The notes beneath the pieces are model-generated. The model was given only the letters and a program-made list of their open reading frames with translations, searched no databases and was not told the DNA's origin. Source: Reyranella massiliensis 521 (GTDB taxonomy: Bacteria; Pseudomonadota; Alphaproteobacteria; Reyranellales; Reyranellaceae). Taken from it: DNA of 32,671 nt. The stretch is taken from contig CAMARK010000055.1 in the NCBI GenBank assembly GCA_945860205.1, positions 1-32,671 on the forward strand. Reading direction: 5' to 3'. Position numbers and translations under genes: made by a program. Position 1 is the first letter of the stretch, and each line of letters begins with the position of its first letter. Below are positions 181-32,387 of this stretch, in pieces.

Positions 181-191
<11 letters not shown>
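1..191 (-). CDS. TauE/SafE-family membrane permease, N-terminal part
   Basis: The 63 visible residues begin with a hydrophobic stretch and the glycine-rich pattern [17 protein letters not shown], followed by the [17 protein letters not shown] segment. Both are typical of the first helices of TauE/SafE (DUF81) permeases, which move sulfite, sulfoacetate or other organosulfur anions across the inner membrane. The rest of the gene lies beyond the left edge. No ATG or GTG precedes the first helix, so TTG at 191-189 is the best start; it lies inside the end of the upstream metH gene, with an 11-nt overlap. That position makes it the last visible member of the methionine operon. A sulfur-related substrate is therefore attractive but is only inferred, because the family is broad. 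Confidence 0.7.
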
Positions 192-2831
<2,640 letters not shown>

Positions 2832-2832
<1 letters not shown>

Positions 2833-3887
2833 CAGAAGAAACTCGCTGCTTCCATACCACTGAGACGCAGCGCCGGCGGCAGCGCATGCCACTGCCGGGG
2901 TTTTACGCCCTTCACTGCCTCGGAGATCGCTTTGATGTGGGCCGGCGTCGTGCCGCAGCAGCCGCCGACCACATTCAGCCAGCCGTTCTCGGCCCAACCC
3001 TTGACCAGCTTGGCGGTCATGGCGGGAGGCTCGTCGTAGGCGCCGAGCTCGTTGGGCAGGCCGGCGTTGGGATAGACGCAGAGCAGACCCTCGACCTGCG
3101 GGTTGAGCGCGTTCACGTAGGGGTGGAGCTCGGTGGCGCCGAAGCTGCAGTTCAGTCCCATGGTGAGGGGCTTGGCGTGCCGCACTGAATGCCAGAACGC
3201 TTCGACCGTCTGGCCCGAGAGGTTGCGGCCGGCGAGATCGGTGAGGGTCATCGACACCATCACCGGCAGTTCCTCAGCCCGCGCTTCCGCTGCTTCATCG
3301 GCTGCGACAAGGGCGGCCTTGGCGTTCAGCGTGTCGAACACCGTCTCGATCAGGATGAAGTCGACGCCGCCGTCGAGCAGCCCGTCGATCTGCTCGCGGT
3401 ACATGTCCTTGACCTCGTCGAAGGTGACGGCGCGATAGCCGGGATCGTTGACATTGGGCGACACCGACAGGGTCTTGTTGGTGGGGCCGAGCGCGCCGGC
3501 TACGAAACGCGGCTTGCCCGGATCGCGCGCCGTGGCGGCATCGGCGCAGGCGCGCGTGAGCTTGGCCGCGGCGATGTTGATCTCGCGCGCCATGCCGGTG
3601 ATGCCGTAGTCCGAGAGGCTGATGGCGTTGGAGTTGAAGGTGTTGGTCGCCACGATGTCGGCGCCGGCATCGAGATAGGCATTGCAGATCTCACCCACGA
3701 CGTCGGGCCGCGTCAGGTTGAGCAGGTCGTTGTTGCCCTTCTGGTCGTGGTTGAAGGTGCGTCCGCCGCGGAAGCCTTCCTCGTCAAGCTTATAACTCTG
3801 GATCATCGAGCCGTAGGGCCCGTCCTTCACGACGATTCTCTCGGCGCCGATCTCGCGCAGCAGGTCGGCTTTTTCAGCGCGTGTCAT
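2832..3887 (-). CDS. metH: Methionine synthase, homocysteine-binding subunit (split MetH)
   Basis: The 351-aa protein is a homocysteine S-methyltransferase barrel equal to the N-terminal third of full-length MetH. The three zinc ligands are present: Cys247 in GLNCSFGA, and Cys310 and Cys311 in GGCCGTTP. Substrate loops such as GDG-like KDGPYGSM (21-28) and [10 protein letters not shown] (181-190) are recognisable. It binds and activates homocysteine for methyl transfer from cobalamin on the downstream-encoded subunit. The protein ends with linker-like residues ([11 protein letters not shown]) that in one-piece MetH would run into the pterin domain, so the split falls at the natural interdomain linker. 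Its ATG overlaps the metF stop by 4 nt (ATGA), and GGGAG lies roughly 10 nt upstream. Confidence 0.95.
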
Positions 3888-4798
3888 CGCGGACGTACTC
3901 CCAGCAGATGGCAGGTGGCAAAGGTAAGGTCGGCGCGGTTCAGCGTATAGAAATGGAACTGGTCCACGCCCTCGGCCTGCAGCCGGCGGCAGAGGTCACC
4001 GGCCACGGTGGCCGCAATCATGCGCCGCGTCTCGATGTCGTCGTCGAGCCCCTGGAACATCTCGGCGAGCCAGGCCGGCACCTTGGAACCGCACAGGCCT
4101 GCCATCCTGGCAATGCCCTGGAAGTTCGAGACCGGCATCACGCCCGGCACGATCGGCACATGGACGCCGGCCGCCGCCGCGTCGTCGCGAAAGCGCAGGA
4201 AATCGTCGGCGTCGAAGAAGAACTGGGTGATGCAGCGGTCGGCCCCGGCATCGACCTTGCGCTTCAGGTTCTCGAGGTCGGCCTTGGCGTCGGCCGAATC
4301 GGGGTGCTTCTCGGGATAGCCCGCGATGCTGATCTGGAAGTTGCCGATCTTCTTCAGGCCGGCCACCAGTTCGGCGGCGTTGGCATAGCCGCCGGGGTGG
4401 GGGCTGTACTTGCCGCCCATGCCGGACGGCGGATCGCCGCGCAGCGCCACGATGTGGCGGATGCCGGCATCCCAATAGGCGCGCGCCACATCGTCGATCT
4501 CGCCCTGGGTGGCGGCGACGCAGGTGAGGTGGGCAGCAGCATCGATGCCGGTCTCGGATTTTAGCCGCGCGACGGTCTCGTGCGTGCGCTGGCGCGTCGA
4601 GCCGCCGGCGCCATAGGTTACGGAAAAGAACGTCGGCTGAAGCGGCGTGAGACGGGTCACCGTTTCCCACAGAGTGCGCTCGGCCGCTTCGGTCTTGGGC
4701 GGCGAGAACTCGAACGAGACCTTCAGCCGCTGCGGTGCGCGCGCGGGAAAGTTGGAAGTGCCGGCGCCTGTGCTGAGGGGCCCGGTATCGGGACTCAT
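3884..4798 (-). CDS. metF: 5,10-methylenetetrahydrofolate reductase
   Basis: This is a 304-aa MTHFR of normal bacterial length. It reduces 5,10-methylene-THF to 5-methyl-THF with FADH2 supplied by NAD(P)H, which makes the methyl donor for the two MetH subunits encoded downstream. Visible marks are FEFSPPK at 29-35 (Glu30 is the catalytic glutamate equivalent), the FFSVTYGAGGST segment, ALRGDPP with Asp122, and the QFFFD and PGVMP motifs of the barrel. The ATG at 4798 was chosen over a much longer open frame because it follows GGAG at good spacing and overlaps the upstream stop codon (ATGA). The N-terminal 25 residues are low-complexity and probably disordered. Confidence 0.96.
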   Translation of the reverse strand: MSPDTGPLSTGAGTSNFPARAPQRLKVSFEFSPPKTEAAERTLWETVTRLTPLQPTFFSVTYGAGGSTRQRTHETVARLKSETGIDAAAHLTCVAATQGEIDDVARAYWDAGIRHIVALRGDPPSGMGGKYSPHPGGYANAAELVAGLKKIGNFQISIAGYPEKHPDSADAKADLENLKRKVDAGADRCITQFFFDADDFLRFRDDAAAAGVHVPIVPGVMPVSNFQGIARMAGLCGSKVPAWLAEMFQGLDDDIETRRMIAATVAGDLCRRLQAEGVDQFHFYTLNRADLTFATCHLLGVRPR

Positions 4799-5781
4799 CG
4801 GGGAACTCCGTGCGAATGGTCGGCGGCAAGGGCAGGGCGTTGCACGAGCTCGCGCTCGGCGCGCCAGATGCCGGTCATCAACCGGCGGCCGGGAAAGTGG
4901 ATGGGCTCCAGCACATTGAGCCCGGCGCTCCTGAGCCAGCCCTGGACCTGGTTGTCGGCGAAGCCGAGATGGACGTGGGCATGCTCGCGCTTCAGCTCGA
5001 CCATGTCGTGCGGCGAGAAATCGACGACCAGCACGGTGCCGCCCGGGCGCACGACGCGAGCCGCCTCGGCGAGCGCCGCGGCGGGATCGTCGGCGTAATG
5101 CAGGACGTGGTGGATGGTGACGACATCGAAGCCGTCGGCCTCGAACGGCAGCGCATACATGTCGCCCTGGCGGATCTCGACATTGTCGAGGCCGGCGCGG
5201 GCAAGGTTGGCGCGGGCCAGCGCCAGCATCTCGCGCGACTGGTCGACGCCCACGGCCTGCACGACCTTGGGGGCCAGCACTTCGAGCAGGCGGCCGGTGC
5301 CGGTGCCGATGTCGAGCAGCCGGCGCGCGCCCAGCGGCAGGTGATGGGCAAGCGCGCGCTCGATCTCGCGATCGGCGACGTGCAGGGCCCGCAGTTCGTC
5401 CCAACGCTGGGCGTTGTCGCGGAAGAAGCGCGCCGCGGCGTTCTGGCGGCGCTGCTGCAGGGCGTCGAGCCGGGCCCGGTCGGTGGCGATACGGGGATGC
5501 TTGGGATCGAGCCGGCGCACGAACTCGCGCACCAGGGCGGCGTCCTCGCCGGCGGTGACCAGGCGGAAGCGGGTGAATTGACCCTCGCGGAAGCGCTCGA
5601 GGAGGCCGGCCTCGACCACCAGCTTGAGATGGCGCGACACCCTGGGCTGGCTCTGGCCCAGCACATGGACGTAGTCGCTGACCGTCAGATCTTCGCGCGC
5701 CGCCAGCGCCAGGATGCGAAGCCTTGTGTCTTCGGCCGCTGCCCTCAGGAGGGTGAGAAGGTGATCCATGAATTCGTTCAT
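4795..5781 (-). CDS. ArsR-family regulator fused to a SAM-dependent methyltransferase domain
   Basis: This 328-aa protein has an N-terminal winged helix of ArsR type (about 5-75, with recognition helix SQPRVSRHLKLV) and a class I methyltransferase fold (about 145-265) with the SAM-binding glycine motif DIGTGTG at 157-163 and a GDMYALPF acidic loop. It has no cysteine at all, so a thiol metal site is impossible and the usual ArsR metalloregulator label does not fit. It heads the metF-metH operon and is coupled to metF through ATGA. The simplest inference is a repressor that reads SAM or S-adenosylhomocysteine through the methyltransferase fold and controls methyl-cycle genes, similar in idea to the SahR regulators described in Proteobacteria. 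Enzymatic methyl transfer cannot be excluded. The ATG at 5781 has no clear Shine-Dalgarno; an internal ATG at 5769 is the alternative start. Confidence 0.85.
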   Translation of the reverse strand: MNEFMDHLLTLLRAAAEDTRLRILALAAREDLTVSDYVHVLGQSQPRVSRHLKLVVEAGLLERFREGQFTRFRLVTAGEDAALVREFVRRLDPKHPRIATDRARLDALQQRRQNAAARFFRDNAQRWDELRALHVADREIERALAHHLPLGARRLLDIGTGTGRLLEVLAPKVVQAVGVDQSREMLALARANLARAGLDNVEIRQGDMYALPFEADGFDVVTIHHVLHYADDPAAALAEAARVVRPGGTVLVVDFSPHDMVELKREHAHVHLGFADNQVQGWLRSAGLNVLEPIHFPGRRLMTGIWRAERELVQRPALAADHSHGVPR

Positions 5782-23106: not shown

Positions 23107-23161
23107 GGCGAGCTTGTAGCGACCCCGCCGAACGGGTTCAATGACGGCGGGGGAAATGCGC

Positions 23162-26100
23162 ATGCTGGCGGAACCAACCGTCCTGGCCCTGTCTTTGGCC
23201 TATCTCGGCCTGCTGTTCGCCGTGGCCTATATCGGCGACCGCTACGCCCGCGACTGGTCGGCCAGTTCGGTGGCCCCGGCCGTCTATGGCCTGTCGCTGG
23301 CCATCTACTGCACCTCCTGGACCTTCTACGGCGCGGTCGGGCGTGCCGCCACCAGCGGCATCGACTTCATCTTCATCTACACCGGCCCGGTCATCGTGGT
23401 GGTCCTGGGCTATCCGATGCTCGCCAAGATGGTGCGCGTGGCCAAGCGCCACAACGTCACCTCGATCGCCGATTTCCTCGCCTCGCGCTACGGCAAGAGC
23501 CGCGCCGTCGGCGTCAGCGCCACGCTGTTCGCCACCGTGGGCGTGCTGCCCTATATCGCGCTGCAGCTCCAGGCGGTGTCGTCGTCCTTCCGCACCATCG
23601 CCGAGCCGACCCAGGGCGTCGCCGGCGGCGTCGTGCACACCGATACGTCGCTGATCGTCGCGGCGTTGATGGCGGTGTTCACCATCCTGTTCGGCGTGCG
23701 CAACGTCTCCGCCTCGGAGCAGCACCGCGGCATGATGCTGGCCATCGCCTTCGAATCGGTGGTCAAGCTGCTGGCGCTGCTGACGGTCGGGCCGTTCGTC
23801 CTCTGGGTGCTGTTCGACGGGCCGTCCGACCTGATCGCGCGAGTGGCGCAGGCGCCGGCGATCGCCGAACGCCTCACTCACAGCGGCACGCCGCTCAGCT
23901 GGATCGTGATGTCGCTGCTTTCGGCGATGGCGTTCCTCTGCCTGCCGCGCCAGTTCCATGTCGCGGTGGTCGAGCACGGCCATCCGGCCAGCCTCAGGAC
24001 GGCTCGGTGGCTGTTTCCGCTTTATCTCGTGCTGATCAATCTCTTCGTCGTGCCGATTGCGGCCGCGGGCCTGCTGCTGCTGGGGCCGCAGGCGAGCCCC
24101 GATCTCTATGTGCTGCAGTTGCCGCTGGCCAACGGCGAGGGCTGGCTGTCGGCCTTCGTCTTCATCGGTGGCCTGTCGGCGGCGACGTCGATGGTGATCG
24201 TGGCCTGCATGGCCTTGTCGGGCATGATCGGCAACGAACTGGTCATGCCCTATCTGCTGAGACGACAGGCAGGGGTCGCGCGCGAGATGGGGCCGCTTGT
24301 GGTGTTCGTGCGCCGCGTCGCCGTCGTGCTCATTCTGATGGCGGGCTATTCGTACGAGCGCATCATCTCGGGCTACCTGCCGCTCGCCTCGATCGGCCTG
24401 ATCTCGTTCTGCGCCGTCGCCAATCTCGCCCCGGGCCTGGTGCTCGGGCTCTACTGGCGGGGCGCCCATCGCTATGGCGTCGTGGCGGGGCTGGCTGGCG
24501 GCTTCGTCGTCTGGCTCTACGCGCTCCTGCTGCCGACCCTGCACCAGAAGACCGGTATCGCGCAGGTGGCGCCGCTGAAGCCCTACCTGCCGGCGCCGCT
24601 GTCCGATCTCGATGCCGTGGGCCAGGGCTTCGTCGTCTGCATCCTGGTCAATGCGGCCCTCCTGATCGGCGTCTCGCTGCTGGCCCGGCCGATCGCCCGC
24701 GACCGCGAGCAGGCCAGCTCCTTCGTGTTGGGCGCCGAGCCGGAACAGCCGCAGCAGCAGGCGCCGGCCGATACCGCGCGCATAGAAGAGCTGCGCGAAC
24801 TGCTGACCCGCTTCGTCGGCTCCGAGCGCGCGCGGCGGGCGCTCTCCGGCGAACGGCTGTCGATCGAGGTGGCGCTGGCGCGCGCCGAGCGCATGCTGTC
24901 GGGAACGCTCGGTTCGGCCTCGGCCCGCATCATCATCGCGGCCTTCGGGCGTCGAGGCCGGTTGCTCCCGCGCAGCGCACGCGCGCTGATCGACGAGGCC
25001 TCGGAAGCGATCCGCTACAACTACGAGATCCTGCGCAACACGCTCGACCATGTCGGCATGGGCATCGCCGCCTTCGATCGCGAGGGCCGCCTGGAAATCT
25101 TCAACGACCGCTTCACGACCCTGCTGTCGCTCGACGACGATGCGGTCGCGGTCGGTGCCGCGCCGCAGCAGTTCGGCGCCGCGGCGGACGTCGTGGCCCT
25201 GCTGCGCCGGCCGGAAACGCCGCAGACGCACGAGATCGCCACCCGCGAGGGCCGGGTCATCGAACTGCGGCTCGATCCGCTGCCCGGCGACGGTTTCGTC
25301 GCCACCTGCAACGACGTGACGGCGCGCGTCCATACCGCCCAGGCGCTGCGCGAAAGCGACCACCAGTTGCGGCAATCGACGGAGACGCTGGAACAGCGCG
25401 TGATCGAGCGCACGGCGGAACTGGAAGCCAGCCGCGCCGAGGCGGAGGCCGCCAATCTCGGCAAGACGCGGTTCATCGCCGCCGCCAGCCACGATCTGCT
25501 GCAGCCGCTCCATGCCGCGCGCCTGTTCACCGCGGCGATGATCGACCGCGATCCCGGCAATGACCTGAGCGGCAAGATCGATGCGAGCCTGGGCGCCGTC
25601 GAATCGCTGCTCGATGCGCTGCTCGACATCTCCAAGCTCGACGCCGGCGCCTTCAAGCCCGAGAAGCGGCCGTTCGCGCTGCAGCCGCTGTTCGAGTCGC
25701 TCGCCACCGCTTTCGCGCCGGTCGCCGCGCGTCACGGTGTCGAGTTGGTCGTCGTGCCGACGCAGGCCTTCGTGTCGACCGACCCGGCCTTCCTGCGCCG
25801 CATCCTGCAGAACCTGCTGTCCAACGCGCTGCGCTACGGCCGGGTCGAGGGCCGGCCACCGCGTGTGCTGCTGGGTTGCCGCCGGGCGCTCCAGGCAGGG
25901 GGGGGCGAGGAACTGCGCATCGAGGTCAAGGATAACGGGCCCGGTATCGCGGCCGACAAGCAGGTCATCATCTTCGACGAATTCGTTCGGCTGCAGCCCG
26001 AGGACGAGGCGCCGCGCGAGGAGCGGGGCCTCGGCCTCGGCCTCGCCATCGTCGATCGCATCGCGCGCATGCTCGACCTGCCGGTCGGCCTCGCCTCGGC

Positions 26101-26593
26101 GCCGGGCCGCGGTTCGACCTTCTCGGTGATCGTGCCGCGCGTGCCCACCGTGGCCGCCGCCCCCATCGCGGCGCCGGCGCCGCAGCCCACGCTCTCGATC
26201 GTGGCCGAGAGTTTCGTGCTCTGCATCGACAACGAGGCCCGCGTGCGCGAGGCGATGGCGACCCTGCTCGGCGGCTGGGGTTGTCGCGTGGCGATCGCGG
26301 CCACCCATGCCGAGGCTCTGGAGCAGGTGGCGCGCTTCGGCCGGCTGCCCGACCTCGTGCTGGCCGATCTCCATCTGGACGAGGGGCCGGATGGGCTGGA
26401 AGTCGTCGATGCCCTCCGCCGGGCCTGGGGCCGTGCGGTTCCGGCGGCCCTCATCACCGCCGATCGAGATCCGACGTTGCGCCTCCGGACGCGGGCGCGA
26501 AACGTCGAACTGCTGCACAAGCCGGTGAAGCCGGCGTCGCTGCGTGCGCTCCTGCGGATGCGCGTCGCCGCTCCCGGGCGTCTTACGGCTTGA
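23162..26593 (+). CDS. CrbS-like hybrid histidine kinase with SSF transporter domain
   Basis: This 1143-aa protein begins with about 13 transmembrane helices of the sodium/solute symporter (SLC5) fold (1-520). A STAC-type linker domain follows (about 540-605, LRELLTRFVGSERARRAL), then a PAS domain (from 618), HisKA with His777 in ASHDLLQPLHAARLF, HATPase_c (KDNGPGIA; GLGLGLAIVDRIARML) and a receiver domain (from about 1020) with phosphoacceptor Asp1069 in VLADLHLDEGPDG. The usual acidic pair of the receiver reads CIDNE. The architecture is that of CbrA, CrbS and MxtR, which sense or transport small carboxylates or amino acids; CrbS controls acetate use. The convergent LuxR-type regulator and the DUF4212/symporter genes favour the CrbS type. 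The ATG at 23162 fits GGGGGA spacing better than those at 23141 and 23156. Confidence 0.92.
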   Translation: MLAEPTVLALSLAYLGLLFAVAYIGDRYARDWSASSVAPAVYGLSLAIYCTSWTFYGAVGRAATSGIDFIFIYTGPVIVVVLGYPMLAKMVRVAKRHNVTSIADFLASRYGKSRAVGVSATLFATVGVLPYIALQLQAVSSSFRTIAEPTQGVAGGVVHTDTSLIVAALMAVFTILFGVRNVSASEQHRGMMLAIAFESVVKLLALLTVGPFVLWVLFDGPSDLIARVAQAPAIAERLTHSGTPLSWIVMSLLSAMAFLCLPRQFHVAVVEHGHPASLRTARWLFPLYLVLINLFVVPIAAAGLLLLGPQASPDLYVLQLPLANGEGWLSAFVFIGGLSAATSMVIVACMALSGMIGNELVMPYLLRRQAGVAREMGPLVVFVRRVAVVLILMAGYSYERIISGYLPLASIGLISFCAVANLAPGLVLGLYWRGAHRYGVVAGLAGGFVVWLYALLLPTLHQKTGIAQVAPLKPYLPAPLSDLDAVGQGFVVCILVNAALLIGVSLLARPIARDREQASSFVLGAEPEQPQQQAPADTARIEELRELLTRFVGSERARRALSGERLSIEVALARAERMLSGTLGSASARIIIAAFGRRGRLLPRSARALIDEASEAIRYNYEILRNTLDHVGMGIAAFDREGRLEIFNDRFTTLLSLDDDAVAVGAAPQQFGAAADVVALLRRPETPQTHEIATREGRVIELRLDPLPGDGFVATCNDVTARVHTAQALRESDHQLRQSTETLEQRVIERTAELEASRAEAEAANLGKTRFIAAASHDLLQPLHAARLFTAAMIDRDPGNDLSGKIDASLGAVESLLDALLDISKLDAGAFKPEKRPFALQPLFESLATAFAPVAARHGVELVVVPTQAFVSTDPAFLRRILQNLLSNALRYGRVEGRPPRVLLGCRRALQAGGGEELRIEVKDNGPGIAADKQVIIFDEFVRLQPEDEAPREERGLGLGLAIVDRIARMLDLPVGLASAPGRGSTFSVIVPRVPTVAAAPIAAPAPQPTLSIVAESFVLCIDNEARVREAMATLLGGWGCRVAIAATHAEALEQVARFGRLPDLVLADLHLDEGPDGLEVVDALRRAWGRAVPAALITADRDPTLRLRTRARNVELLHKPVKPASLRALLRMRVAAPGRLTA

Positions 26594-27224
26594 CCAGTTC
26601 TGCGGCGGGAAGCGCGAGACTGCGGGCCTCGATCACGGCCTGTGTACGCGATCGGACGCCGAGCTTGCGTAGAATCACCGTCACGTGTGCTTTCACGGTC
26701 GCCTCGCCGACGTTGAGCTTGTGGGCGATCTGCTTGTTCTGATCGCCGCGGACCATGAGGGAGAGCACGCGCCATTGCTGGGGTGTGAGCTGAGAAGCAC
26801 GTTGCGCGAAGGTGTCAATGGGGCCCGTCTCGGGTGGCGCGAAGATCTCGCCGCGCAGAACCGCGCCAACGATCCGCGCAATCTCCTCCAGAGACGCTGA
26901 CTTGTCGATGTAGGCCGAGGCCCCGAACTCGTAGGCGCGCCTCACCACGGCCATTTCGCGAGCAGCCGATACGACGATGACCGGAACCGCGGGATGGCTG
27001 GAGCGGATGAGAGCCAGTCCGGTGAGACCATCCATCCCGGGCATGTCGAGGTCGAGCAGGACGGCATCGGTCTCCGGCTCGTGTTCCAGCGCGGATAGCG
27101 CCTGCTCCAGCGTACCGGCCGGCGCAATCGCCGCACCGACGAAGCTCTGCCGCAAGGCCGTGCCCAGCGCATCGCGCACCATCGGGTGATCGTCGGCGAC
27201 GATGAAGCGTTCGGCATGCGCCAT
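26583..27224 (-). CDS. CrbR/ErdR-like LuxR-family response regulator
   Basis: This 213-aa regulator has an N-terminal receiver (about 5-120) with the acidic pair Asp11-Asp12, phosphoacceptor Asp58 in LLDLDMPGMDG and Lys108-type DKSASLEEI, and a C-terminal LuxR HTH (about 145-205): LTPQQWRVLSLMVRGDQNKQIA, then LNVGEATVKAHVTVILRKLGV. It would bind DNA when phosphorylated by the neighbouring hybrid kinase; CrbR-type proteins activate acetyl-CoA synthetase and acetate-permease genes. The 3' end overlaps the kinase gene by 11 nt tail to tail. The ATG at 27224 is preceded by only a weak GGGA. The pairing is inferred from proximity and known family organisation. Confidence 0.92.
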   Translation of the reverse strand: MAHAERFIVADDHPMVRDALGTALRQSFVGAAIAPAGTLEQALSALEHEPETDAVLLDLDMPGMDGLTGLALIRSSHPAVPVIVVSAAREMAVVRRAYEFGASAYIDKSASLEEIARIVGAVLRGEIFAPPETGPIDTFAQRASQLTPQQWRVLSLMVRGDQNKQIAHKLNVGEATVKAHVTVILRKLGVRSRTQAVIEARSLALPAAELVKP

Positions 27225-27256: not shown

Positions 27257-28717
27257 TCAAGGCGTCCGCTCGAGGCTCCTGTTGGTGAGAGCCTCGCGCA
27301 CCCGTTCCGGTGTCTCGCCGGCAACGGCGAGCGCCTTGCGCAGCCGGCGCAGGCCGGCGCGCTTCAGCCGCTTCGGGTCGACACGCGTCGATGGCGCCAG
27401 TCCGGCGGCGACGTCGGCGAGTTGCTGGTCGAGAATGGCCTCCACGATCGCGGCACGGGCCGCCGTGAGGTCGGCGGCCGTATCGGGCGGCAGCGCGCCC
27501 TTTGCCGCCGACTCGGCCAGTCGGGAATCGGTCGAGGTCGCGGCGGACTTCCAGGCGAGGGCGATCGCCCGGGCGCCGGCGACGACGGGGAACAGCCCGC
27601 GCAGCTTGAGATCGCTGCGGCCATTCTCGGTGCGAAGCCGGCCCAGCAGGTCGAAGGCACCATCGCCACGCTCGCTTGCCGCTGCAAGCAGGCGCAGGAA
27701 CATCGGCGACTTCGCCGCGGCGGCGACGGCATGGTTGCGCAAGGCGTGGGCCAGCGAGCGCTCTCCCAGGACGGGGGCAAAGTCGTAGAAGATATCGACG
27801 TTCAGCATTGCATCGGGTTGCGGCCGGTCGATCCAGGAATCGATCTCGCTGCACCAGCCGTCGAGGGATCGGCGGAAGGTCGCGTTGCTCGCCATCACGC
27901 CACCCTTGCAGAAAGGCACGCCAGCGGCATCGAGGAGACTATTCAGTTTCTCGGCGAAGGCTGCGAACCAGGAGTCGACCGTGTCGCTGCCGTCGTGGAT
28001 CAGCGCATTGTCCTGATCGGGTGTCAGCAGGGTCTCGCCGCGGCCGGCCGAGCCGAGGACCAGCAGGCACCATCTCGCCGGCGCCTCGCCGCGGCCCAGC
28101 TCGCGCATTGCCGCTTGCGCCAGTTCGCCTGCGCGAGCGGTGACATCGCGCGTGACGCCGGCGATGACGGCGGAAACCTGGACCGCCGCGACATCCTCTT
28201 GGCGCAGGGCGGCGGCCAGCGCGGGCAGCTTGGCAAAGGCCGTGCGCAGGGTCGCGGCATCCGCCGCATGATCGATCTCGTCGCCCAGCGTCAGGGCAAG
28301 CGACGCGCGCTGCTTCAGGAGGCTGCGCGCGGTGAGCATGCCGAGCGGCCGGCCGGCCTCGTCGATCACCGGCAGGTGCCGGACACCGAGTCGCGCCATG
28401 CGGGCAAGGGCGCGATAGACCAGCGCATCGGCATCGATGCCGTGGACCGGTGTTCCCATGATCTCGGCCACGCCGAGCGCAGGATGTGCGGGATCGCGTA
28501 CGACTGTTCGCATCACGTCGTGTTCGGTGACAATGCCCTGCAACCGTCCGTCATCATCCAGCACTGCGACGGAGCTGACGTGACGCTCGATCATCGTGCG
28601 CGCCGCTTCGGCGACCGTCGCCGTTGCGGGCACGGCGACGATGGGCGCGGTCATCAGGTCGGCCACGCGATGGCGGTAGGGGAAACTGTCGAGCCGCTCC
28701 AGGGGGGCGGTGTCCAC
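27257..28717 (-). CDS. CBS-domain DUF294 nucleotidyltransferase-like protein
   Basis: This 486-aa protein has two CBS domains (about 15-75 and 83-137), then a DUF294 nucleotidyltransferase-like domain whose core is GSAGRGETLLTPDQDNALI (222-240), with the paired acidic residues Asp234 and Asp236, followed by a helical DUF294_C region with KLRGLFPVVAGARAIAL. CBS domains usually bind adenine nucleotides; the second domain resembles GlnD/GlnE-type transferases, whose targets here are unknown. Longer homologues add an N-terminal cyclic-nucleotide-binding domain, which is absent in this one. The GTG at 28717 gives a full first CBS domain, and GAGG lies upstream within the end of the exonuclease gene; the two genes are separated by 5 nt. 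Homologues travel with SSF symporters and CrbS-type kinases. Confidence 0.9.
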   Translation of the reverse strand: MDTAPLERLDSFPYRHRVADLMTAPIVAVPATATVAEAARTMIERHVSSVAVLDDDGRLQGIVTEHDVMRTVVRDPAHPALGVAEIMGTPVHGIDADALVYRALARMARLGVRHLPVIDEAGRPLGMLTARSLLKQRASLALTLGDEIDHAADAATLRTAFAKLPALAAALRQEDVAAVQVSAVIAGVTRDVTARAGELAQAAMRELGRGEAPARWCLLVLGSAGRGETLLTPDQDNALIHDGSDTVDSWFAAFAEKLNSLLDAAGVPFCKGGVMASNATFRRSLDGWCSEIDSWIDRPQPDAMLNVDIFYDFAPVLGERSLAHALRNHAVAAAAKSPMFLRLLAAASERGDGAFDLLGRLRTENGRSDLKLRGLFPVVAGARAIALAWKSAATSTDSRLAESAAKGALPPDTAADLTAARAAIVEAILDQQLADVAAGLAPSTRVDPKRLKRAGLRRLRKALAVAGETPERVREALTNRSLERTP

Positions 28718-28722
28718 GGCGT

Positions 28723-29385
28723 TCAGCGCCTCGGCGCACGATGGGCGGCCATGGCGCCGCCGAACGTGCCGCGGCCTTGGCCGATCAGCTTCCGGGCAAG
28801 GGCAACGAAGAGGTCCGCGGCCATCCTTGCGTCTCCGGCCGCACTGTGCCGCGTACCATTCGGTTCGATGCCGAGGCGCGCCAGCATGTCGACGAGGTCG
28901 ATGTTGCCCGCAGCAAGGCCCAGGCCAGCCATCAGTTCACATGTGTCGAACCAGGGTGGCTCCCGCCAATCGCAGCCGTTGCGGCGCGCCTCGACGGCAA
29001 GCATCGCCAGGTCGAAACTGACGTGGTGTCCGACGACGACGCACCCCGCCAAGGCCGTCTGGATTTCGTCGTAGGCTTCGGCAATCGTCGGTGCGTTGGC
29101 AACTTGCGCATCGTCGATGCCGTGCACGGCTATGGCGCGGGCCGGAATGGGCATGCGGGGATCGATCAACGTATCGAGGATCGGCGGCTCGATCACGCTG
29201 AGGCCCGCCGCGATCTTCACCGCTGCGATCGACACGATGCGATCCCGGCGCGAATCGAGGCCGGTGGTCTCGCAGTCGATCACCACCATCGGCAGCCTTT
29301 CGAGCGGCGTGTGCTTGGGGACACGCAGCCGCTTGAGCGATTTCGGTTGGCCGAGATAGCGGTCGAAGATGTCGGCGATCGTCAT
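28723..29385 (-). CDS. DnaQ-like DEDDh 3'-5' exonuclease
   Basis: This 220-aa protein has an N-terminal extension (about 1-30), then an exonuclease domain. Exo I is VVIDCETTGLD (Asp37, Glu39), Exo II is GHHVSFDLAML (Asp125), and Exo III is HSAAGDARMAADL (His180, Asp185), so all DEDDh residues are in place. It is not the PolIII epsilon subunit by length and context; such proteins degrade ssDNA, RNA or small oligonucleotides. Its ATG overlaps the preceding stop (ATGA) and its own stop is 5 nt from the DUF294 gene. A nuclease in a carboxylate-signalling locus is recurrent but its role is unexplained. Confidence 0.93.
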   Translation of the reverse strand: MTIADIFDRYLGQPKSLKRLRVPKHTPLERLPMVVIDCETTGLDSRRDRIVSIAAVKIAAGLSVIEPPILDTLIDPRMPIPARAIAVHGIDDAQVANAPTIAEAYDEIQTALAGCVVVGHHVSFDLAMLAVEARRNGCDWREPPWFDTCELMAGLGLAAGNIDLVDMLARLGIEPNGTRHSAAGDARMAADLFVALARKLIGQGRGTFGGAMAAHRAPRR

Positions 29386-29981
29386 GTTGCGTGGCTGGAG
29401 AGGTCCTGTACCAGGGCAGCCGTGTCGAGCCGCCGCGGCAGCCGGTCGTTGAAAGAGATCAGGCCGAAGGTCATTGCCGCGCCAAGAACGGCGCTTTCCT
29501 CTTCTACGGCGTTGGCGCGCACGGGCGCCTTGCCATAGATCAAGACGCCGGTCTTGTAGCCGATCACCTTGAGCTCGGGAGGCCGGCCGTCGGAAGTGGC
29601 GCCGAAACGCGCGAGAAGGGCGGCATGACAATCGCTCCAGCCTTGCGGGCGGTGCACCGGGTTGGGGTACTCGCCAAGCACATCGGCGTAGACGGCGAGC
29701 AGCGGCGGATCGAGCCCGGGCCCGGCCGCAAGATGGGCACGCACCAGGAAGGTCATGTCGGCGGCGATGGCGGCAAACGATTCCCAGCGGCAAATGGCAA
29801 AGGCTTCGTTGAATTTCGCATCCCCCAGGATGTGCTGGCCATGCCAGGCCAGCGTGTTGCGCGAAAATTCATAGGTCGCGCGTTGTGCGAGGTAGGAGGC
29901 TTCGCCGCTCACGAACCGGCGCAGCACTGGCCGGGTCGTCACCCGGCTGGGGAAGAACCGGTCTCGGAGCTTCTGCAACAT
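29382..29981 (-). CDS. Uncharacterised 199-aa protein coupled to the exonuclease
   Basis: I do not recognise a named family. The protein starts with a basic stretch (MLQKLRDRFFPSR), has a likely helical block (about 15-75: RRFVSGEASYLAQRATYEFSR, then FNEAFAICRWESFAAIAADM) with aromatic and arginine-rich faces, a middle segment with DVLGEYPNPVHRPQGW, and a strand-rich tail (ELKVIGYKTGVLIYGKAPVR). There is no signal peptide or membrane segment. Predicted soluble and cytosolic. It opens the minus-strand unit with the DEDDh exonuclease (ATGA overlap) and the CBS/DUF294 protein, opposite the DUF4212/symporter genes, so an accessory or partner function in that system is likely. Confidence 0.8.
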   Translation of the reverse strand: MLQKLRDRFFPSRVTTRPVLRRFVSGEASYLAQRATYEFSRNTLAWHGQHILGDAKFNEAFAICRWESFAAIAADMTFLVRAHLAAGPGLDPPLLAVYADVLGEYPNPVHRPQGWSDCHAALLARFGATSDGRPPELKVIGYKTGVLIYGKAPVRANAVEEESAVLGAAMTFGLISFNDRLPRRLDTAALVQDLSSHAT

Positions 29982-30207
29982 GCGACCTGCCTATCACCCC
30001 GAGATATCCAGCCCATTAGACTAAAGTATGAGGCGACGCGCATTGTAAGCAAACAATTGCTCGTGTAGTGAATTAAGGCAACAATACGACCATGCGCCCG
30101 AGAAGCGCTGGCGATGGGGAAACGCAAAAGAATCGGGATTGAGCCGACTTCTACATCGCGGCGATAGCTTGAGCGCTCCCCACAAGGTCGATTGAAGGGA
30201 GCGGACA
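29982..30207. promoter_or_regulatory. Divergent promoter region with an AGCAA-N4-TTGCT dyad
   Basis: The 226-nt gap separates the exonuclease unit from the DUF4212-symporter unit and is richer in A/T than its surroundings. A dyad AGCAA-ACAA-TTGCT lies at 30048-30061. Its two halves double as -35-like elements: TTGCTC with AACAAT 17 nt on (plus strand, 30057-30085), and TTGCTT with TACTTT 18 nt on (minus strand). A shared operator, perhaps for the LuxR-type regulator encoded at 26583-27224, is plausible. GGGAG at the right end is the ribosome site of the DUF4212 gene. No gene is supported in the gap. Confidence 0.45.
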
Positions 30208-30477
30208 ATGGCCGAAAAGCGACTGACAGGCGAGCAACAGGCCGCCTACTGGCACAAGACGCGGAACCTCATGTGGGTGATCCTCGCCGCATGGTTCATT
30301 TTCAGCTTCGTGGTCCACTTCTTCGCGCCGCAGCTGAACAAGATTCACATTCTGGGCTTCCCGCTGGGCTACTACATGGCCGCCCAAGGGTCGCTAATCG
30401 CCTTCGTCCTGATGTGCGTGTGGAACGCCAGGTCGCAGGACGCGATCGATCGCGAATTCGGCGTCCAGGACGAATAG
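30208..30477 (+). CDS. DUF4212 small subunit of a sodium/solute symporter
   Basis: This 89-aa protein has the DUF4212 pattern: a short N-terminal hydrophilic part with AYWHKTRNLM, a first membrane helix (WVILAAWFIFSFVVHFFAP), the conserved PLGYYMAAQGSLIAF segment of the second helix, and a cytosolic tail with IDREFGV. It is invariably found beside large symporters of the VC_2705 type and is assumed to be their small subunit. It has a GGGAG ribosome site, and the symporter gene starts 20 nt downstream, so the two are almost certainly one transcript. Confidence 0.95.
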   Translation: MAEKRLTGEQQAAYWHKTRNLMWVILAAWFIFSFVVHFFAPQLNKIHILGFPLGYYMAAQGSLIAFVLMCVWNARSQDAIDREFGVQDE

Positions 30478-30497: not shown

Positions 30498-32387
30498 ATG
30501 GCAGCCATGCAGGGCGGGTTTCTCGCCAACCTCGGCAAGGTCTACGGCATCTACACCGGCACCTTCGTCGGCTTCACCGTTTTCATCGGTATCCTGGAGG
30601 TCTTCGGCGTACCGAACAGGATCCTGGGTTACCTGTTCATCTTCCTGACGATCGGCGTTTACGGGCTGATCGGCTATCTGGCCCGGACGTCGGAGGTCAC
30701 CGAGTACTACGTGGCCGGCCGCACGGTGCCGGCGTTCTATAACGGAATGGCGACGGGCGCCGACTGGATGAGCGCCGCGTCGTTCATCGGCATGGCGGGT
30801 TCGCTCTATTTCGGCGGCTACGGCGGCCTCGCCTTCGTGCTGGGCTGGACCGGCGGCTATGTGCTGGTGTCGATCCTGATGGCGCCGTACCTGCGCAAGT
30901 TCGGCCAGTTCACCGTGCCGGACTTCTTCAGCGCCCGTTACGGCGGCAACGTCGCCCGCGGCTTGGCCGTGATCGTGCTGATCACCGCGTCGTTCGTCTA
31001 CGTCGTGGCCCAGATCGTGGGCGTGGGCATCATCACCGCCCGCTTCCTCGACATCGGCTTCGAGATCGCCTGCTTCGTCGGCCTCATCGGCATCCTGGTG
31101 TGCTCGATGCTGGGCGGCATGAAGGCTGTCACCTGGACCCAGGTGGCGCAGTACATCATCCTGATCATCGCCTACCTGATCCCGGTGGTCGTCATGTCGG
31201 CCAAGGTGACCGGCGTGCCGATCCCGCAGTTGATGTACGGTCAGGCACTGGAGAAGATCGAGGTGCTGGAGAAGACTCTCGGCGTGACGCAGCCGTACAC
31301 CGCGGCCTTCGTCGATGCCAAGGGCAACTACAGCCCGATAGCGATGTGGAACTATTTCGCCCTCATCCTCTGCTTGATGGTCGGCACCGCGTCGCTGCCG
31401 CACATCCTGATGCGGTATTTCACGACGCCGTCGGTCAAGCAGGCACGTGACTCGGTCGCCTGGTCGCTGTTCTTCATCTTCCTGCTCTACTTCACGGCGC
31501 CGGCATACGCGGCCTTCGCCAAGCTGGAAGTCTACCAGGACGTGATCGGCCAGCCGATCGCCCAATTGCCCGCCTGGGTCGCCTCGTGGGGCAAGATCGG
31601 CCTCGTCGGCGCCTGCGACGCGGCCAACGCTTCGGAGATCTACAAGCTCTGCGCCGGCGTGAAAGGCAACGGCGACGGCATCCTGCAACTCTCCGAGTTC
31701 CGGCTCCACACCGATGCGGTGGTGCTGGCGACGCCGGAGATCGCCGGCCTGCCGTACGTCATCTCGGGCCTGGTCGCGGCCGGCGGTCTTGCCGCCGCGC
31801 TCTCGACCGCCGACGGTCTGTTGCTGGCGATCGCCAACGCCCTCAGCCACGACGTCTACTACAAGATGATCGACCCCAACGCCGACACCAAGCGTCGCCT
31901 CGTGATCAGCCGCGTGCTTCTGGCGCTGGTCGCGGTGGTGGCGGCCTATGTGGCCGGCACGCTGGGGGCGGACATCCTGTTCCTCGTGTCCTGGGCCTTC
32001 TCGATCGCCGCCGCCGGCCTGTTCGCAGGCCTGGTGCTCGGCATCTGGTGGAAGCGGGCCGGCAATGCCGCCGGCATCGCCGGCATGGTGGTGGGCTTTG
32101 GCCTCTGCATGTTCTTCCTGCTCGCGACCGAGTTCTACGGGCCGTGGGTCAAGGCGAGCATGAGCTGGATGGGCGACATCAACATCGTCAAGATCCGCGG
32201 TCGCGATGTCGCCTACATCTGGGGCATCAACAACATCTCGGTCGGCATCTTCGGCATCCCGGCGGCCTTCCTGGCGATGATCGTCGCCGGCTACATGTCG
32301 AAGCCGGCGTCGCGCGAGATGCAGGACTTCATCGACTCGATCCGGACTCCGTCCGGATCGGTTCGCAACGTCGAAGCGGCGCATTGA
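30498..32387 (+). CDS. Sodium/solute symporter, VC_2705 subfamily (ActP-like)
   Basis: This 629-aa integral membrane protein has about 13 helices of the SSF fold. Recognisable segments are EVTEYYVAGRTVPAFYNGMATGADWMSAASFIGMAG (split over helices 2-3), FGQFTVPDFFSARYGG, LGGMKAVTWTQVAQYIILI, TASLPHILMRYFTTPSVKQAR and ISGLVAAGGLAAALSTADGLLLAIANALSHD. It resembles ActP acetate permeases but belongs to the longer type paired with DUF4212. A hydrophilic loop of about 70 residues between helices holds KGNGDGILQLSE (389-400), an EF-hand-like loop lacking the first aspartate. The likely cargo is acetate, propionate or another short carboxylate with Na+, inferred from homology and the neighbouring CrbS-like kinase. 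AGGGGAG precedes the ATG. Confidence 0.95.
   Translation: MAAMQGGFLANLGKVYGIYTGTFVGFTVFIGILEVFGVPNRILGYLFIFLTIGVYGLIGYLARTSEVTEYYVAGRTVPAFYNGMATGADWMSAASFIGMAGSLYFGGYGGLAFVLGWTGGYVLVSILMAPYLRKFGQFTVPDFFSARYGGNVARGLAVIVLITASFVYVVAQIVGVGIITARFLDIGFEIACFVGLIGILVCSMLGGMKAVTWTQVAQYIILIIAYLIPVVVMSAKVTGVPIPQLMYGQALEKIEVLEKTLGVTQPYTAAFVDAKGNYSPIAMWNYFALILCLMVGTASLPHILMRYFTTPSVKQARDSVAWSLFFIFLLYFTAPAYAAFAKLEVYQDVIGQPIAQLPAWVASWGKIGLVGACDAANASEIYKLCAGVKGNGDGILQLSEFRLHTDAVVLATPEIAGLPYVISGLVAAGGLAAALSTADGLLLAIANALSHDVYYKMIDPNADTKRRLVISRVLLALVAVVAAYVAGTLGADILFLVSWAFSIAAAGLFAGLVLGIWWKRAGNAAGIAGMVVGFGLCMFFLLATEFYGPWVKASMSWMGDINIVKIRGRDVAYIWGINNISVGIFGIPAAFLAMIVAGYMSKPASREMQDFIDSIRTPSGSVRNVEAAH

Follow-up and report, generated by a model that had tools for sequence, protein, structure and literature searches.

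The window analysed here is the whole stretch of 32,671 nucleotides from Reyranella massiliensis 521. The closest named relatives belong to Reyranella or come from records labelled Rhodospirillales or Alphaproteobacteria. The locus has the following features:

23141-26593, plus strand: CrbS-like hybrid histidine kinase, convergent with the response-regulator gene
26583-27224, minus strand: CrbR/ErdR-like response regulator of the LuxR family, the final gene of the run that begins with X
27257-28717, minus strand: protein of 486 aa with a CBS pair, DUF294 and DUF294_C (Pfam), GTG start, GlnE-like architecture with G-x11-D-x-D
28723-29385, minus strand: DEDDh 3'-5' exonuclease of 220 aa (Pfam RNase_T, E 3.3e-30), catalytic motifs intact
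29382-29981, minus strand: protein X, 199 aa, ATG start, predicted to be all-helical and soluble, of an unnamed alphaproteobacterial family that tracks the divergent symporter
30015-30031, minus strand: ACTU-like predicted CrbR box, TCATACTTTAGTCTAAT, between X and the DUF4212-symporter genes, recognized by matrix score and conservation
30208-30477, plus strand: DUF4212 small membrane protein, 89 aa (PF13937, E 4.3e-29)
30498-32387, plus strand: VC_2705-family sodium/solute symporter, 629 aa (TIGR03648, 693.8 bits; NCBIfam cut-off 320.75)

The coordinates bear out the tight layout that a first-pass annotation had described for X, the exonuclease and the CBS-DUF294 protein. The stop codon of X and the ATG of the exonuclease overlap in the sequence ATGA (29385-29382), and 5 nt separate the exonuclease from the CBS-DUF294 gene. 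The run has a fourth gene that the annotation had left unnamed, the CrbR/ErdR-like response regulator, which follows after 32 nt, and the genes for DUF4212 and the VC_2705-type symporter run divergently from X. The motif residues of both enzymes had been read as intact, and the sequences agree with this. The exonuclease carries DCETTG, GHHVSFD and HSAAGDA, so that D-x-E, D and H..D are all present, and the DUF294 protein, which matches PF03445 and PF10335 (DUF294, E 1e-38; DUF294_C, E 2.7e-24) in addition to two CBS stretches, retains GSAGRGETLLTPDQD and DIFYD, with the GS..D-x-D motif and a third acidic residue. The genes for the kinase and the response regulator are convergent, with an 11-bp overlap at their 3' ends (26583-26593). 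At the other end of the window, positions 181-5781 hold a methionine-cycle block, judged from the translations, in which two overlapping ORFs apparently encode methionine synthase and further ORFs a MetF-like reductase and a regulator of the ArsR type that includes a methyltransferase part.

The best NCBIfam model for the response regulator was ErdR (182.8 bits, below the cut-off of 390), and the kinase scored 397.9 bits with the NahK/ErcS C-terminal model, for which the cut-off is 400. Read by eye, the N-terminal part of this CrbS-like kinase is symporter-like; Pfam gave no SSF match there. The ACTU motif of CrbR has been published (PMC5715377), and a matrix was built from six published sites, two of which are predictions only (PMC5715377). 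With this matrix, positions 30015-30031 rank first of the 65310 scored positions in the window. An ACTU-type site of at least 14.5 bits was found in all 24 close-relative loci (23 of them with a CrbR gene in view) and in 1 of 17 other loci, and the box is conserved while its flanks vary. For each of these 24 loci, between 0 and 8 of 60 random stretches drawn from the same locus, which may overlap the site itself, scored at least as high as the site. The strict ACTU core occurs once in the window versus 0.26 expected, for a pattern that was written after the sites had been seen. The predicted box lies 33 bp from the start codon of X in the window and 13-71 bp from it in the other loci. Judged from the sequence, 33 bp would be close for an activator of X, and as far as distance goes the box may drive either of the divergent runs. 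A second block, CCCCATCGCC...GGGCGCC, is conserved with few differences between the CrbR-type box and the DUF4212 gene (30032-30207) in the window and in L058-L070, and may serve the symporter run as a promoter or as a site for a regulator.

Parts of this arrangement are familiar from other bacteria. In P. putida, the CBS protein PP_0354 and the exonuclease PP_0353 are reported to form an operon linked to MxtR/ErdR, the equivalent of CrbS/R (PMC9927547), and ErdR is reported to bind the PP_0354 promoter region (PMC8402216). Deletion of pp_0353 is described as impairing growth on pyruvate and not on acetate, with the authors calling its role on pyruvate unclear, and the deletion of the CBS protein is described as having no growth defect on acetate (PMC9927547). 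In P. fluorescens, PFLU5625 is listed in the CrbS/R regulon, and its mutant is described as having no phenotype (PMC5715377); PFLU5625 is annotated with a cAMP-binding domain, whereas Pfam found none in the DUF294 protein here. The CrbS/R system also serves growth on acetate in the alphaproteobacterium S. fredii (PMC9100948). The acetate regulon that CrbS/CrbR (MxtR/ErdR) controls in Pseudomonas and Vibrio has the ACTU-type box and genes for a CBS-nucleotidyltransferase and an exonuclease, as in PP_0354/PP_0353, in common with the present locus, whose kinase and regulator also appear closest to the CrbS and ErdR types. The present locus differs in that the exonuclease precedes DUF294, the run begins with X, and the symporter is of the DUF4212/VC_2705 type (best ActP model, 174.1 bits, compared with 693.8 bits for TIGR03648). 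The RpuS/R-MctP pyruvate system of Sinorhizobium fredii likewise combines an SLC5/STAC kinase and a LuxR regulator with a monocarboxylate symporter in an alphaproteobacterium (PMC9100948). However, the legend that describes its gene context names a DUF3311 protein and not X, the exonuclease or DUF294, and its promoter site is given as a direct repeat rather than the ACTU inverted repeat (PMC9100948). In the accessible text of PMC5436829 we found no mention of the genes of the locus, and a literature search returned no paper on DUF4212.

The exonuclease and the CBS-DUF294 protein form a pair, as natural fusions demonstrate. Among the 66 loci searched, 12 ORFs join the exonuclease, the CBS stretches, DUF294 and DUF294_C in one polypeptide; ten of these are complete (712-753 codons from stop to stop) and two are cut by the end of the locus. 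D-x-E-T-T-G, H-x-A-x-x-D-A and GS-x-GR-x-E...DQD are kept in all 12, and the third acidic motif in the ten complete ORFs. In the 12 fusion loci, X is a separate ORF or is absent from the stretch. Pairwise distances for the exonuclease and DUF294 across 25 loci (the window and 24 close loci, with genes covered by less than a quarter dropped) correlate at 0.96. The exonucleases of a number of other alphaproteobacterial loci have N-terminal stretches that look like transmembrane segments (L026:10327-11667, L027, L090, L093, L098, L109, L114-L116 and L131), and the one that was scanned, from L026, gave a weak PAS match below the cut-off. These extensions hint at a link between nuclease activity and sensing at the membrane.

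The nucleotidyltransferase part of the pair resembles GlnE, the glutamine synthetase adenylyltransferase. A model of the CBS-DUF294 protein (pLDDT 86.2) had its two closest fold matches in the two halves of the E. coli enzyme, 1v4a (Z 26.5, rmsd 4.8, 335 residues aligned) and 3k7d (Z 26.2, rmsd 3.2, 311 residues aligned). The first-pass annotation had credited this protein with a preserved nucleotidyltransferase core, and the fold of the model, like the motif, is in keeping with that. The protein AMP-transferase DrrA followed with Z 24.4, and the other matches listed were to the CBS pair. GlnE was not among the 50 best Foldseek matches listed, which are matches to the CBS pair. The two proteins share a nucleotidyltransferase followed by a helical C-terminal domain, and the G-x11-D-x-D spacing is in register, with GSAGRGETLLTPDQD aligned to GKLGGWELGYSSDLD in a profile alignment that is itself of low significance (E 0.066 and 0.038; probability about 1%). 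DUF294_C has been classed with the partner domains of the GlnD/GlnE type (PMC3710099). Differences from GlnE are that the sequence similarity is very weak and that the DUF294 protein has one catalytic half, preceded by a CBS pair, and is partnered by a DEDDh exonuclease. A nucleotidyl writer/eraser pair is plausible but unproven; if the exonuclease does act as the eraser, it would represent a new way of reversing protein nucleotidylation. The locus also gives a lead on the unexplained pair PP_0354/PP_0353 of the CrbS/R regulon, in that natural fusions of related activities exist and the transferase is GlnE-like.

The same pair could instead work on RNA, with DUF294 adding nucleotides to 3' ends and the exonuclease trimming them, which would give post-transcriptional control during growth on carboxylates. 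Membership of the exonuclease in the DEDDh RNase_T family and the ORFs that join a 3' nuclease with a nucleotidyltransferase are both in line with such a role. However, in fold the nucleotidyltransferase part comes closest to protein adenylyltransferases, and the published classification of DUF294_C puts it beside the partner domains of the GlnD/GlnE type (PMC3710099). We regard an RNA substrate as unlikely.

Protein X belongs to a family that is apparently undescribed. We obtained no match for X in Pfam, NCBIfam or PHROGs up to E 1. Searches with 36 relatives touched ten Pfam families, each matched by one relative only (best E 3.4e-4), and a profile of the 36 sequences found nothing below E 0.43 among PDB sequences. 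Neither the X family nor the exonuclease-DUF294 fusion was found in the literature searched, which covers few subscription papers and in which X has no name to search by. Searches recovered the family from 14 of 61 relatives, from 61 of 385 genomes of a class sample (39 of 276 genera) and from 6 of 398 genomes of a phylum sample, five of them of the same class and the sixth a weak match (E 8.7e-5, one stop); it is essentially alphaproteobacterial. Loci from the separate X-family searches overlap, many being on the same contigs. In-frame stops that had been flagged in two genomes of 1.2 Mb (G134, G410) proved by their coordinates to be the stop codons of the genes themselves.

The AlphaFold2 model of X is all-helical (pLDDT 92.8, pTM 0.90) and had no convincing structural relative in Foldseek (best E 0.83) or VIA-align (best Z 5.5). 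Matches to bestrophin and to helical bundles in the PDB, VIA-align and viral fold searches were at noise level and were rejected. A membrane protein was also rejected, because the most hydrophobic 19-residue stretch averages 1.27 and no transmembrane helix is therefore expected. In HEPN-MNT pairs, the helical protein carries a conserved R-x4-6-H. X was rejected as a HEPN protein of this kind since its R-x5-H is not conserved: the His of RNTLAWH is kept in the near copies of L059 and L061 and is Tyr, Phe or another residue in most relatives. Across 34 diverse members W66, R125 and P153 are invariant, and Q33, F57, D75, P108 and R111 occur in at least 31.

In profile searches X was found adjacent to the symporter gene and divergent from it in all 39 testable loci of the genome-contig scan and in 31 of 35 class loci; the latter had been chosen for fetching, count one genome twice (G416, as L112 and L162) and leave out L001-L057 and L137-L142. 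A TIGR03648 symporter is present in 60 of the 61 genomes of the class sample that have X, and 52 of the 61 X genes are divergent from it within 3 kb. The other nine comprise four that are near and non-divergent, one 7.7 kb away and four on contigs without a symporter match. X accompanies one class of symporter only. It is present in 60 of 63 genomes with a lower-scoring symporter (<760 bits) versus 0 of 29 with a higher-scoring one (at least 760 bits), a split that was set after the gap in scores was visible and between genomes that are related, like the loci behind the other counts, so that the Fisher value is not clean. Four of the 63 have partial symporter matches (G236 and G212 with X, G110 and G039 without), and in G225, where the symporter is complete, X was not found.

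A tree of 53 symporters gave the same division. Its rows are sequences of at least 560 aa from the window and the loci searched for fusions, including the second copy of L149 on a very long branch. The 11 symporters from high-scoring contexts group together as a single clade (100/100) on a long branch, without X, and 39 of the other 42 come from stretches with X; for two of the remaining three, X is present in the genome (G158, G124) but lies on a different contig. None of the ten high-scoring contexts that were read (L125-L132, L135, L136) has X. Since DUF294 is present in two of these (L129, L131) and the exonuclease in one (L131), the exonuclease-DUF294 pair is not tied to the symporter class of X. 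Distances for X across the 25 loci correlate most closely with those for the symporter (0.96), followed by DUF4212 (0.89), the exonuclease and DUF294 (0.87 each), CrbR (0.62) and CrbS (0.40). Relative to the window, ten loci (L078-L086, L092) have a CrbS that is 84-94% identical where measured, a symporter that is 62-69% identical and an X that is 37-41% identical. From the genomic association, the co-divergence and the soluble helical model we infer that X contacts or regulates the symporter; in all likelihood it acts in the cytosol as an accessory or regulator of the lower-scoring class. Conserved gene order does not in itself demonstrate contact, however, and none of the fold matches of X points to a function. 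An unnamed family is thereby placed beside a defined symporter class, and its role is open to direct test.

Alternatively, X might be a hitchhiker, or a factor in the expression or assembly of the symporter, that is kept in place by a shared divergent promoter and not by joint action. The shared intergenic region with its CrbR-type box would suit such an origin, as would the lack of a fold clue for X. Its restriction to one symporter class, in both the genome counts and the tree, argues against it, as do the co-divergence of the two proteins, the retention of X in genomes of 1.2-1.3 Mb and the four genomes of the class sample in which X lies near the symporter in a non-divergent orientation. 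We consider this explanation unlikely and favour a functional partnership of X with its symporter class.

The first-pass annotation had treated X, the exonuclease and the CBS-DUF294 protein as a single coupled system. Its second half stands, on the strength of the fusions and the correlation of 0.96, and the membership of X is not supported. X, exonuclease and DUF294 do occur together in many loci: an exonuclease gene is located no more than 4 kb downstream of X in 18 of 29 loci of the genome-contig scan and 10 of 33 class loci, as counted with the window sequence alone at E 1e-5, a search that diverged copies may escape, and the same is true of DUF294 in 20 of 29 and 11 of 33. The annotation had said that its reading would fall if the X family were mostly found apart from the exonuclease; by these downstream counts, that is the case in the broader class set and not in the other. 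Four of the 22 class loci with neither partner downstream of X (L099, L100, L109, L110) have the pair elsewhere in the stretch, and in L073 and L074 the exonuclease is on the opposite strand. By eye, the genes that follow X in eight loci without the downstream pair seem unrelated. In 7 of 25 close-group loci, X leads directly into the CrbR gene. Reyranella aquatilis KCTC 52223 (L068) has X but neither exonuclease nor DUF294 at this locus, and Azospirillum oleiclasticum (L090) has all three. DUF294_C is within 8 kb of X in 33 of the 61 X genomes, elsewhere in 14 and unmatched at E 1e-6 in 14, some of which are incomplete and one of which is a 99% complete genome of the window's own genus. A single co-translated unit in which X serves as adaptor of the nuclease and nucleotidyltransferase, as the ATGA overlap, the 5-nt gap, the 18 of 29 and 10 of 33 loci with both partners downstream and the correlation of 0.87 of X distances with both exonuclease and DUF294 might suggest, is very unlikely in view of the 11 of 29 and 23 of 33 loci with no exonuclease downstream of X, the 14 genomes without a DUF294_C match, the seven close relatives with nothing between X and CrbR and the separation or absence of X in all 12 fusion loci.

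The locus appears to consist of two distinct modules and not of a single machine with three parts, because in the comparison X tracks the symporter and the exonuclease pairs with CBS-DUF294. We think it reasonably probable that this is a CrbS/CrbR-type locus for carboxylate uptake composed of two cassettes. The first would consist of the DUF4212-symporter genes and the divergent X, with X working together with this class of symporter. In the second, the CBS-DUF294 protein would be a nucleotidyltransferase of the GlnE kind whose gating depends on adenylates at its CBS pair, and the exonuclease would serve as eraser or trimmer on the target of this enzyme. Once carboxylate is sensed, activated CrbR would bind the ACTU box between X and DUF4212 and switch on the X-exonuclease-DUF294-crbR run, the symporter run or both. 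A more elaborate version, in which the cycle of nucleotidyl transfer to protein, gated by adenylates through the CBS pair, and erasure by the exonuclease (the same polypeptide in some alphaproteobacteria) sets the activity of the symporter through X as a symporter-specific regulatory subunit, seems to us very doubtful.

Further features of the symporters were noted. Of 38 symporter ORFs from loci that contain X, 27 have an EF-hand-like calcium loop (e.g. DANGDGILQLAE) immediately ahead of ATPEIAGLPY, compared with 1 of 14 from loci without X; it is seen in relatives such as L026, L027, L099, L104, L112 and L146. The copy of this loop in the window symporter (residues 389-400, 31662-31697) reads KGNGDGILQLSE, without the first acidic ligand, and several symporters from loci without X have an EDKNGDG-like stretch elsewhere in the protein. 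Two SSF-type symporter genes are found in tandem in L132, L133 and L149, the second copy of L149 being very distant. The divergent X-symporter pair is kept in L099-L102, which are from single-contig genomes of 1.2-1.3 Mb, and in L099 and L100 DUF294 and the exonuclease are also close by.
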